Of a stretch of DNA of 64,000 bases, positions 13,362 to 52,777 are shown piece after piece. The notes beneath the pieces were generated by a model. It was not told the DNA's origin and made no database searches. It was given only the letters and a program-made list of their open reading frames with translations. The stretch is from Bacteroidota bacterium (lineage in GTDB: Bacteria; Bacteroidota; Bacteroidia; Chitinophagales; Chitinophagaceae), in contig CANJPH010000001.1 in assembly GCA_947476145.1 (NCBI GenBank), forward strand, positions 97,362 through 161,361. Reading direction: 5' to 3'. Every line of letters begins with the position of its first letter. The first letter of the stretch is position 1. The position numbers and the translations under genes are program-made.

Positions 13362-14993
13362 ATGCAATTTGGAACTTTTAACTACCCTAGTCCTGCCAAT
13401 GAACCCGTTTTAAATTACGCACCAGGTTCGCCCGAAAAATTAGCTTTAAAAAAAGCATTGGCTAGCTTAAAGAAAAAGACAATCGACATCCCAATGTATA
13501 TAAATGGAAAAGCGGTTAGGACAGGTAAAAAAATAAGTATCCGCCCACCACACGAAATCAAACATGTACTTGGACATTTTCATATGGGGAACAAGGGACA
13601 TGTTGAACAAGCCATTCAAACTGCTTTAAAAGTAAGAACAGAATGGTCTAATATGAATTGGGAAACAAGAGCACATATATTTTTAAAAGCGGCCGATTTA
13701 TTAGCGACTAAATATCGTTTTGAAATGAATGCAGCAACCATGCTTGGACAAAGTAAAAATGCATACCAAGCGGAAATTGATGCAGCCTGTGAGTTAATTG
13801 ATTTCTTGAGATTTAACGTTCATTTTTTAAGTGAAATATATAAACAACAACCCGTGTCGGCTCCTGGTATTCATAACCGTATGGAGTGGAGAGGTTTGGA
13901 AGGATTTGTGTTAGCAGTAACGCCCTTTAACTTTACAGCCATTGGCGCTAATTTGCCAAGTTCAGCTGCCATGTGCGGCAATGTGGTAGTTTGGAAACCA
14001 TCTGATGCACAAATTTATTCTGCACAATTATTTATGCGTATTTTAAAAGAAGCAGGATTGCCAGATGGGGTTATTAATATGGTATATGTAGATGGTCCTG
14101 TATTAGGCAATGTTTGTTTTAAACATCCCGATTTTGCTGGCGTACACTTTACCGGATCAACAGGTGTGTTTAATAATATGTGGAAACAAATTGGAGAAAA
14201 TATTGGAAATTATAAAACCTATCCAAGAATTGTGGGTGAAACGGGTGGAAAGGATTTTGTGATGGTACATCCATCTGCCGATGTAGATACCGTAGTTGCT
14301 GCGTTAGCGAGAGGTGCGTTTGAATACCAAGGACAAAAATGTTCAGCTGCATCAAGAGCTTATATACCAAGTAATATTGCTGCTGCCGTAAAAGAAAAAT
14401 TAGTAAAAGCAGTACAGTCCATGAAAGTGGGAACGGTGGAAGATTTTTCTAATTTTGTAAATGCAGTAATCAGTGAAAAATCATTTGATCAAATTGCTAG
14501 CTATATTAACAAAGCAAAAAAAGATAAAAAAGCAAAGATTTTAGTTGGTGGAAATTTCAGTAAAAAGTTGGGCTATTTTGTGGAACCCACCGTCATTGAA
14601 ACATCGGATCCCAAATACCTTACCATGTGTGAGGAAATCTTTGGTCCAGTATTAACGATCTATACTTACCCAGCAGCCAAATTTGAAAAAACATTAGAAT
14701 TAGTAAACAGTACTTCAAAATATGCCTTAACGGGTTCTATCATCTCACAAGACCGTGCGGCTATTGAACTAGCTACCGAAAAGCTACGTCATGCGGCCGG
14801 TAATTTCTATATTAACGATAAACCATCAGGTGCCGTGGTAGGTCAACAACCTTTTGGAGGTGCCAGGGCTTCAGGAACCAACGATAAGGCAGGAAGTATG
14901 CTTAATTTATACCGTTGGTTAAGCGCCAGAACCATAAAGGAGACCTTTAACCCCCCAACTGACTATAAATACCCATTTTTAAACGAAGCATAA
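13362..14993 (+). CDS. pruA: L-glutamate gamma-semialdehyde dehydrogenase (delta-1-pyrroline-5-carboxylate dehydrogenase)
   Basis: Aldehyde dehydrogenase superfamily; VTPFNFTAIGANLPS, GETGGKDFVMVHP, YQGQKCSAASRAYIP. Confidence 0.95.
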   Translation: MQFGTFNYPSPANEPVLNYAPGSPEKLALKKALASLKKKTIDIPMYINGKAVRTGKKISIRPPHEIKHVLGHFHMGNKGHVEQAIQTALKVRTEWSNMNWETRAHIFLKAADLLATKYRFEMNAATMLGQSKNAYQAEIDAACELIDFLRFNVHFLSEIYKQQPVSAPGIHNRMEWRGLEGFVLAVTPFNFTAIGANLPSSAAMCGNVVVWKPSDAQIYSAQLFMRILKEAGLPDGVINMVYVDGPVLGNVCFKHPDFAGVHFTGSTGVFNNMWKQIGENIGNYKTYPRIVGETGGKDFVMVHPSADVDTVVAALARGAFEYQGQKCSAASRAYIPSNIAAAVKEKLVKAVQSMKVGTVEDFSNFVNAVISEKSFDQIASYINKAKKDKKAKILVGGNFSKKLGYFVEPTVIETSDPKYLTMCEEIFGPVLTIYTYPAAKFEKTLELVNSTSKYALTGSIISQDRAAIELATEKLRHAAGNFYINDKPSGAVVGQQPFGGARASGTNDKAGSMLNLYRWLSARTIKETFNPPTDYKYPFLNEA

Positions 14994-18015: not shown

Positions 18016-19248
18016 TTATTTGAAAAATATATAGCCAATGAATATGGCTATGATGACTCCAATAATATCTGCAAAGATCCCTGCCCATAATGCGTATCTA
18101 ATTTTTTTAATCCCCACACTTCCAAAATACAAAGCAATAATATAAAAAGTAGTATCTGCAGATCCTTGAAAGATGGATGCTAGTTTTCCCACAAAGGAAT
18201 CGGCACCCTGTGTTTGAAATATATCCAACATCATTCCTCTGGCCCCACTTCCACTTAATGGCTTCATGATAGCCACTGGCAATGCACCTATAAATTCAGT
18301 ATTTACTCCTGTTAATTGTATGATATAGGTTAACCCATTGAGTATATATCCCATTGCACCACTATCTCTAAATACACGAATGGCAACCAACATGGCAACT
18401 AAATAGGGTATAATTTTTACAATCACATCAAACCCTTGTTTGGCACCTTCTATAAAGGCATCAAAAACTGAAACTTTTTTATAGGCTCCTCCTATTATAA
18501 TGAGTACGATAATTAATAAAAGTAAACCATTGCCAAAAACTTTAGAGACTACTTCTTTATTTTGAGGGCTTAGCATGTTCACTGCCAATAATACGCCAGC
18601 CATTAAACCCATTAAACCCAACAACCAACTAATAAGTACTTTATCCCATTTTAGTTTTTGATAAAAACCTACCATTAAGATACTTGCTAAAGTGGTGCCA
18701 ATGGTAGCCAACACACAAGGTATAAAAATTCCTGCAGCGTCATGTGAACCTGCTGCTAGGCGATAGGAAATAATAGTTAAAGGAATAATCGTTAACCCAC
18801 TGGTATGCAAAACCAAAAACATAATTTGTGCATTCGTTGCTTTTTCTTTATCTGGATTTAATGTTTGTAAACTTTCCATGGCCTTTAATCCAAATGGCGT
18901 TGCTGCATTATCTAATCCTAACATATTGGCGCTAAAATTCATAACCATATGCCCCATGGATGGATGATTCGCGGGCACTTCTGGAAATAGTCTACTTAAA
19001 AATGGGTTCATCCATTTGGCAAGCTTTTGAATAGCACCTGCTTTTTCGGCAATATTCATTAATCCTAAGAAAAATACCATTGTCCCCGTTAAAGGTAATG
19101 CCACATCCATTACAGATGATTTGGCTGAGTCAAATATCCCATCTGCTAGTAGTTTAAATATACTGGTATCTCCTAAGAAAATGAGTTTACACAACGCAAT
19201 AACAAAGGCAATCAAGAAAAAAGCGATCCAAATGATATTTAAAGCCAT
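18016..19248 (-). CDS. Nucleoside-recognition (Gate) domain membrane protein, SpmA/SpmB fusion type
   Basis: ANMLGLDNAATPFGLKAMESLQ and ALPVAIMKPLSGSGARGMMLDI. Confidence 0.88.
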   Translation of the reverse strand: MALNIIWIAFFLIAFVIALCKLIFLGDTSIFKLLADGIFDSAKSSVMDVALPLTGTMVFFLGLMNIAEKAGAIQKLAKWMNPFLSRLFPEVPANHPSMGHMVMNFSANMLGLDNAATPFGLKAMESLQTLNPDKEKATNAQIMFLVLHTSGLTIIPLTIISYRLAAGSHDAAGIFIPCVLATIGTTLASILMVGFYQKLKWDKVLISWLLGLMGLMAGVLLAVNMLSPQNKEVVSKVFGNGLLLLIIVLIIIGGAYKKVSVFDAFIEGAKQGFDVIVKIIPYLVAMLVAIRVFRDSGAMGYILNGLTYIIQLTGVNTEFIGALPVAIMKPLSGSGARGMMLDIFQTQGADSFVGKLASIFQGSADTTFYIIALYFGSVGIKKIRYALWAGIFADIIGVIIAIFIGYIFFK

Positions 19249-52328: not shown

Positions 52329-52402
52329 GGTTCGGTAGCTCAGCTGGATAGAGCGTCATCCTTCTAAGATGAGGGCCATTGGTTCGAATCCAATCCGAAT
52401 CA
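52329..52402 (+). tRNA. tRNA-Arg(TCT)
   Basis: GGTTCGGTAGCTCAGCTGGATAGAGCGTCATCCTTCTAAGATGAGGGCCATTGGTTCGAATCCAATCCGAATCA; loop CTTCTAA gives anticodon TCT. Confidence 0.97.
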
Positions 52403-52403
52403 C

Positions 52404-52434
52404 AAAGCCTGTCACGAAAGTGACAGGCTTTTTT
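52404..52434 (+). terminator. Strong intrinsic terminator of tRNA-Arg
   Basis: AAAGCCTGTCAC-GAAA-GTGACAGGCTTT, 12-bp perfect stem with GNRA tetraloop, then T-run. Confidence 0.92.
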
Positions 52435-52489
52435 AATACGAAGCCGCGAAACAAGCTCGCTTGATTGAGCGGATGAGTATTAAAAAAGC
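52427..52489. repeat. 13-bp perfect inverted repeat, 37-nt interior with nested short hairpins
   Basis: GCTTTTTTAATAC (52427-52439) / GTATTAAAAAAGC (52477-52489). Confidence 0.85.
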
Positions 52490-52490
52490 A

Positions 52491-52513
52491 AACTAAACGC
52501 GTAGCGTTTAGTT
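52491..52513. repeat. 10-bp perfect hairpin, 3-nt loop
   Basis: AACTAAACGC-GTA-GCGTTTAGTT. Confidence 0.9.
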
Positions 52514-52529
52514 AAAAGGCTTTGGGTAA

Positions 52530-52584
52530 GCTTCCAAAAAGATGCCGGCGAAGTAAAACGAAGCCGGCAATCCATTTTGGAAGC
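52530..52584. repeat. Nested inverted repeats: 10-bp outer arms and 7-bp inner arms
   Basis: GCTTCCAAAA..TTTTGGAAGC; inner TGCCGGC (52543-52549)..GCCGGCA (52563-52569). Confidence 0.9.
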
Positions 52585-52586
52585 AC

Positions 52587-52750
52587 AGGATCACCGAGCA
52601 AAGTGAGGTAATCCTGAAAGCTTGAGCTCCAAGGATCACCGAGCAAAGCGAGGTAATCCTGTAAACTTGAGCTCCATGGATCACCGAGCGAAGCGAGGTA
52701 ATCCTGAAAGCTTAAGCTCCAAGGATCACCGAGCAAAGCGAGGTAATCCT
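52587..52750. repeat. Four 29-nt hairpin units at an exact 45-bp period (starts 52587, 52632, 52677, 52722)
   Basis: (A/T)GGATCACCGAGC(A/G)AAG(T/C)GAGGTAATCCT with 16-nt spacer G(A/T)AA(G/A)CTT(G/A)AGCTCCA. Confidence 0.95.
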
Positions 52751-52777
52751 TTAGTAAAAATGAATTAATTTAGCCAC

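Follow-up and report, generated by a model that had tools for sequence, protein, structure and literature searches.

The window analyzed here, the whole 64,000-nt stretch presented above, contains on its forward strand a gene for tRNA-Arg(TCT) whose 3' end from the T-loop onward, AATCCAATCCGAATCA, occupies 52387-52402, followed immediately by a series of predicted structures (Table 1). These are continuous from 52403 to 52750—a 122-nt body folding as a four-way junction in the order CAAAGCCT (5' arm of P1), H1, H2, H3, and AGGCTTTG (3' arm of P1), then a GGTAA linker, a 55-nt hairpin, and finally four 29-nt hairpins in tandem—and the folding z-score of 52404-52760 is -12.9. No other family in Rfam accounts for this segment, since only tRNA and RNase P reach the gathering threshold in the window and nothing else does in related loci, matches to RtT RNA (RF00391) or other families being loose and far below cut-offs.

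Table 1. Features of the element behind tRNA-Arg(TCT), in window coordinates.
Feature	Position	Strand	Basis or remark
tRNA-Arg(TCT), host of the element	52329..52402	+	ARAGORN, Rfam RF00005, sequence
Element body, closed four-way junction flush with the tRNA	52403..52524	+	Match to model R1 (145.9 bits), covariation
P1	52403-52410 paired with 52517-52524	+	
H1	52411-52424	+	With the P1 5' arm and the T-run also forms a terminator-like hairpin
H2, long hairpin	52427-52489	+	
H3	52491-52513	+	
Conserved linker start GGTAA (GGTAAG with the next base)	52525..52529	+	Identical bases after P1 in most loci
First tail hairpin, long form GCTTCC.. ..GGAAGC, with GCCGGC stem and AATCC (52569-52573)	52530..52584	+	z = -6.3 as DNA
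Array hairpin copy 1, G.T wobble variant	52587..52615	+	Repeat finder, TRF, sequence
Array hairpin copy 2	52632..52660	+	Repeat finder, TRF, sequence
Array hairpin copy 3, GCGAAGC tip	52677..52705	+	Repeat finder, TRF, sequence
Array hairpin copy 4	52722..52750	+	Repeat finder, TRF, sequence
Three 16-nt spacers of the GAAAGCTTGAGCTCCA type (52616-52631, 52661-52676, 52706-52721)	52616..52721 (region)	+	Sequence

The array at 52587-52750 was the subject of the original prediction, which described it accurately. Four copies at an exact 45-bp period were recovered both by TRF (period 45, 3.6 copies, 91% matches, score 286) and by a repeat finder (copy starts spaced by 45, 45, and 45), and the tandem G.A stem, the GCAAAGC and GCGAAGC tips, the wobble-compatible C-to-T change in copy 1, and the minus-strand open reading frame with a 15-aa repeat (52512-52736) are all present. 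Apart from one marginal TRF match, it is the sole array in the window. All of its hairpins terminate in GGTAATCC, and their stem contains a C.A mismatch (AGGATcACC/GGTaATCCT) at which a sister genome carries a T that yields a perfect 9-bp stem. A single 29-nt unit is weakly stable alone (about -3.7 kcal/mol as DNA, z about -1.8); the strong structures at this locus are the upstream 55-nt hairpin and the four-way junction, not single array units. The spacers resemble GGTAAGCTTGAGGAAC, the linker in the tails at other tRNA-Arg(TCT) genes (compared with L082), and the same tail position and hairpin type recur behind many tRNA-Arg(TCT) genes. Further copies of the 45-bp unit across the genome, which the original prediction had envisaged, did not materialize: the best other match in the genome, on contig 6, reaches only 85% over 33 bp, and exact array cores number just the four known ones in the approximately 1.5 Mb read of the 2.06-Mb genome. 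The sister genome (L171) has the first tail hairpin, and at the array site, on contig CAIOYQ010000120.1 with flanks that are 94% and 89% identical, there is just a single hairpin, AGGATTACCGAGCGAAGCGAGGTAATCCT, without any spacer unit. Having four copies is therefore specific to this lineage, and the number may well be neutral in itself. The array is the locally multiplied distal end of a larger structured element, rather than an isolated REP. As a separate observation, a similar hairpin, GGATGGCCGAGCAAAGCGAGGACAATCC, occurs twice at a 57-bp period elsewhere in the same genome (C6:4497-4586, L010), near a gene for a 559-aa tyrosine recombinase and with no detected tRNA adjacent.

The anatomy of this larger element is conserved in outline and variable in detail. 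At 52403-52434, CAAAGCCTGTCACGAAAGTGACAGGCTTTTTT forms a G+C-rich hairpin followed by a T run, as in an intrinsic terminator, which accounts for H1 only. The loops of H1 are mostly GAAA or GCAA and those of H3 mostly C-GNA-G or C-AAA-G. GNA triloops form stable DNA mini-hairpins; these loop types are compatible with either RNA or DNA and do not decide between them. Across loci, tails hold one to several tandem hairpin copies whose sequence varies with the tRNA. Among individual trailers, some (L042, L053, and L057) have an insertion of approximately 85 nt in H2 that holds a further hairpin of the GAGCGAAGCGAG type, and a collapsed one behind tRNA-Ser(GGA) in a relative (G034, L299), with GGCTTTG directly after H1, is consistent with a deletion between two GGCTTT repeats.

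The body is anchored at tRNA genes, in line with the relevance that the original prediction had given to the neighboring tRNA, and it is widespread. A BLAST search found it behind other tRNAs in relatives, and in the window's own genome, where the census covered approximately 1.5 Mb of 2.06 Mb, it stands behind the Arg-TCT, Leu-TAA, Ser-GGA, Leu-GAG, Lys-TTT, Arg-ACG, and Cys tRNA genes (a contig end truncates the Leu-TAA gene, whose identity was taken from relatives). An apparent further body at a tRNA-Ser(TGA) gene of the same genome (L394, 13945), with a terminator hairpin and an AAGCTTGCTT tip, was missed by model R1; per-genome counts are therefore lower bounds. R1, which was built from the genus Sediminibacterium, detected the element in 64 of 81 genomes of that genus and in 12 genera out of 79 others in the family. 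Model R2, built from the family, detected it in 79 of 247 genomes and 55 of 136 genera of a class sample; beyond the class, seven genomes of the phylum gave a match. The E-values of these covariance searches are rough, and position beside a tRNA provides support that does not depend on them: of the 29 best class loci, 27 begin -1 to 10 nt past a same-strand tRNA, and 20 of 24 loci from the phylum search lie at most 30 nt from a tRNA, while the remainder come after a tRNA 3'-end copy or a tRNA-like end. The start is almost always within approximately 12 nt of the 3' end of a same-strand tRNA. Not all tRNAs are used, only some of them: in one near-complete genome, about 6 of 33 carry the element directly, and an island has displaced one more copy. 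When 84,980 species were scanned with a strict pattern, the Sediminibacterium version turned up only in Sediminibacterium-like or unnamed Bacteroidetes/Chitinophagaceae MAGs and in two contigs binned as Comamonas, which are probably mis-binned.

Two side observations concern what precedes the body. At several sites (L179 3019 and 4593, L223, L245, L252, L187, and L265), GAGGCTA replaces the full tRNA 3' end; a short reverse-strand reading frame (..VASIGASLEEF..) enters H1 in trailers of this type, some of which lie 1.6-3.5 kb from a tRNA-Glu trailer. Elsewhere, an insert bearing motifs like those of group I introns seems to interrupt tRNA-Leu(TAA) (L244, ~1351-1490, and C5:1-127 of the window's own genome); a group I intron looked likely by eye and found no support in Rfam.

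The fold of the body is maintained by compensatory change. A plain MAFFT alignment of 13 copies, made without reference to a structure, has changes on both sides at 25 of 45 pairs. Alignments fitted to the model are biased towards it, and give 43 of 45 such pairs both for 90 distinct copies and for 15 copies from other genera (the latter including all eight P1 pairs); controls are far lower, since paired cells make up 97.2% of the 90-copy alignment versus 75.3% after shuffling and 39-49% after sliding. G.U cells greatly outnumber A.C cells (109 versus 13, and 30 versus 6 in the family set), and selection therefore appears to act on the sense strand, as single-stranded RNA or DNA; a double-stranded cruciform is disfavored by the same excess. 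Selection on structure, which the original prediction had proposed for the array, thus holds for the larger element, which that prediction had missed and of which the array is the tail. A lineage-specific tandem duplication, which had been named as the outcome that would speak against such selection, is indeed what the array itself represents, whereas the larger element has both covariation and homologues.

Another finding is that the tail carries a copy of the 3' end of the very tRNA behind which the element stands. In other genera, 15-19 nt of the tRNA, from the T-loop to the discriminator, are repeated after the tail hairpin (GGATCA..TAATCC), and tRNA-integrating elements are characterized by just such a direct repeat of the tRNA 3' end, placed distally. 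The copy lies 166-171 bp downstream of the original in six loci, and 197 and 216 bp downstream in two more. Across 18 tRNA types, tails match the cognate 3' end better than those of other types (p = 5e-5). In a separate comparison, matches of at least 9 nt were found in 38% of cases for the cognate and in 2.8% for other tRNAs. Moreover, whole units occur in tandem at approximately 170-178 bp, each opening with a tRNA 3'-end copy. In Sediminibacterium, the copy has decayed to approximately 5 nt, and in the window only AATCC is left, 182 bp from 52387; the array hairpins would on this reading be multiplied, decayed versions of the distal junction that carries the copy. A resemblance of the tail linker to the tRNA D-arm was also considered and rejected, being weak and inconsistent (p 0.001; 0.002 and 0.07) with several tRNA regions tried; the 3'-end copy is the robust signal.

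The explanation that we favor, and to which we give about an even chance, is that the array is the amplified distal end of a miniature, probably non-autonomous element that would target tRNA 3' ends. A complete unit, most clearly visible in other genera, consists of the tRNA 3' end from the T-loop, the four-way-junction body, a brief linker, and a hairpin forming the tail, with a 3' arm that enters a copy of the 3' end of the same tRNA. Each unit would be, or descend from, such an element, which would enter the tRNA gene at the T-loop, keep that gene intact by bringing its own copy of the tRNA 3' end, and supply a terminator-like hairpin (H1). It might be recognized in a folded single-stranded form and mobilized by an enzyme encoded elsewhere, perhaps a GIY-YIG nuclease or a tyrosine recombinase, and in this lineage the tail hairpin would have passed from one to four copies by ordinary tandem duplication. 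Several observations weigh against mobility. Tandem duplication alone could produce repeated units, the tRNA copy in Sediminibacterium is reduced to those approximately 5 nt, and GIY-YIG genes are seen at just three loci. Furthermore, the same tRNAs retain the body throughout the genus, as would also be expected if it served the host; H1 makes a good terminator in almost all copies; and neither an empty/filled pair nor movement of a unit was seen among the loci compared.

A possible but rather doubtful alternative is that the segment is a structured trailer RNA: the tRNA transcript would partly read through, RNase Z would cut after the discriminator, and the blunt-P1 four-way junction would be freed as a stable noncoding RNA resembling rtT, with the tail hairpins stabilizing its 3' end. 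The strong covariation, the G.U excess on the sense strand, the GNRA loops of H1, and a P1 that in Sediminibacterium is flush with the RNase Z cut site all agree with it. However, H1 and its T-run should stop most transcripts before the remainder is made, P1 in other genera starts up to approximately 12 nt or more past the tRNA, and neither the cognate 3'-end copies in the tails nor the tandem units are explained.

It is unlikely that the segment is simply a composite transcription terminator or insulator behind highly expressed tRNAs, in which the hairpins, including the array, would block read-through in both directions. The hairpin-plus-T-run arrangement of H1 is present in the window and in nearly all copies, and tails do sit between the tRNA and the next gene. 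Nevertheless, ordinary terminators that are not flush with the gene follow most tRNAs of the same genome, the tail hairpins lack a T run, compensatory changes preserve P1 closure even at some loci with weakened terminator-arm pairing such as L243, and the tRNA 3'-end copies and the genes found between units are left without an explanation.

Less probable still is that the 45-bp repeat is slippage noise beside a tRNA, a meaningless tandem duplication. The contrast between four copies here and one in the sister genome is what it would produce, but the duplicated piece is a conserved module that stands behind tRNAs in many genera. Complementarity between the two arms of a tail hairpin is 94%, versus 65% after swapping arms between hairpins—in a partial set, as the regular expression caught part of the hairpins and counted some twice, with and without their first G—and the median folding z of tails is -1.7 versus +0.1 in downstream controls. 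Finally, we reject as very improbable the notion of a REP sequence or BIME mobilized by a RAYT transposase, which the original prediction had named as one possible direction: short imperfect palindromes in a small intergenic tandem array do recall such systems, but the RAYT domain Y1_Tnp (PF01797), for which we searched, is absent from the window's own genome and from every strong carrier tested and is present only in six large genomes of the genus with no or one weak element match, the array unit has no near-exact copy elsewhere, and the elements, which have a far more complex fold, are confined to tRNA 3' ends rather than dispersed at unrelated sites.

The other direction of the original prediction, toward a MITE-like or structural element, has fared better. 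Like MITEs, the units are short, gene-free, bounded by inverted ends (P1), and presumably non-autonomous. They differ in having one orientation and one kind of site, and in a flanking repeat that is a tRNA-specific copy instead of a fixed-length target duplication; no target-site duplication of fixed length was seen and no transposon with matching ends was identified.

Genes found between units or tRNA copies bear on how the favored, mobile element might work. In relatives, the ends of cassettes at tRNA-Met are conserved across many genomes, the repeated block consisting of the tRNA 3' half, body, and tail; these cassettes carry, among other genes, a multicopper oxidase set and nos genes, with no integrase or recombinase seen inside. 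In one such cassette array (L180; G009:C21:84001-104000, with sites at 796-923, 14317-14448, and 18560-18691), a 4.1-kb copper-oxidase cassette and a 13.4-kb stretch of nos genes are each flanked by this block, and the cassette end sequences are common to about a dozen other sites. A histidine kinase and a response regulator lie between units or tRNA copies in other genera. Three unrelated genomes have small GIY-YIG nuclease reading frames between tRNA copies or units (L390 785-1048; L391 10566-10826; L316 1124-1426 and 1692-1949), with PF01541 confirmed for those of L390 and L391, which hints that they are a candidate mobilizing enzyme or autonomous partner; none of this type was found in approximately 1.5 Mb of the window's own genome. 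The window's own tRNA-Arg(TCT) site is without cargo, while in a relative (L178, G034:C6:166389-176037) an island of approximately 9.4 kb with a tyrosine recombinase sits in the 3' end of the same tRNA and parts it from its trailer. As for a phage vehicle, no trailer or cassette end was found in IMG/VR. Short tyrosine recombinases of approximately 194 aa, limited to the catalytic part, were also noted (L082/L109, 62-649; C50:4249-4740 of the window's own genome), one of which sits in an island beside a displaced tRNA-Arg trailer. We offer only tentatively the wider proposal that these are miniature elements spread across the phylum Bacteroidota, which would home as folded single strands to the tRNA T-loop, restore the tRNA, stack as cassette-like units that gain genes (nos, copper oxidase), and be mobilized in trans by the small GIY-YIG nuclease of autonomous members.

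This family of elements across Bacteroidota is apparently undescribed, as a limited literature search, which excluded most subscription papers and all preprints, found no description of it. In Escherichia coli, the 178-bp tandem repeats of tyrT, associated with rtT RNA (RF00391), are units directly behind a tRNA, each with a tRNA 3'-end copy. Our units are similar in length, arrangement, and content; the E. coli repeats are found at one tRNA only, whereas here many tRNA types and a whole phylum are involved, and a covarying four-way junction with a tail hairpin has to our knowledge not been described for tyrT, to whose RNA family there is no Rfam match here. Tycheposons are cargo-carrying elements that sit at a tRNA gene and bring a tyrosine recombinase. 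In these and other tRNA-integrating islands, the tycheposons as described in a secondary source (PMC10872708), the 3' part of a tRNA is repeated at the element ends and cargo cassettes accumulate at a few tRNA genes. The tRNA-Met cassettes of relatives fit this pattern, although neither an integrase nor a recombinase was seen inside them. The unit itself differs in measuring approximately 170-180 bp, holding no genes, and having a body with a conserved fold. The tyrT repeats and tycheposon-like islands are the closest in architecture; the folded body, the spread over tRNA types, and the taxonomic breadth belong to neither. A further possible analogy is with integrons, whose attC sites are recombined by IntI as folded single strands, form cassette arrays, and carry R and L boxes (GTTRRRY). 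The tail-hairpin core is instead GGAW..ARTCC or GGATCA..TAATCC, and no GTTRRRY-type boxes were seen by eye in the tails. Lastly, the GIY-YIG reading frames at three loci recall GIY-YIG homing elements, from which our units differ in that most have no reading frame; cleavage or homing here would be hypothetical.

About a third of the sampled Bacteroidia genomes thus have a strongly covarying fold immediately after tRNA genes, for which Rfam has no entry. If it acts as an RNA, it would represent a large unnamed class of tRNA-linked RNA. If it moves, it would amount to a minimal tRNA-targeting element of a new kind, and the accumulation of islands at tRNA genes of freshwater Bacteroidota would become easier to understand.
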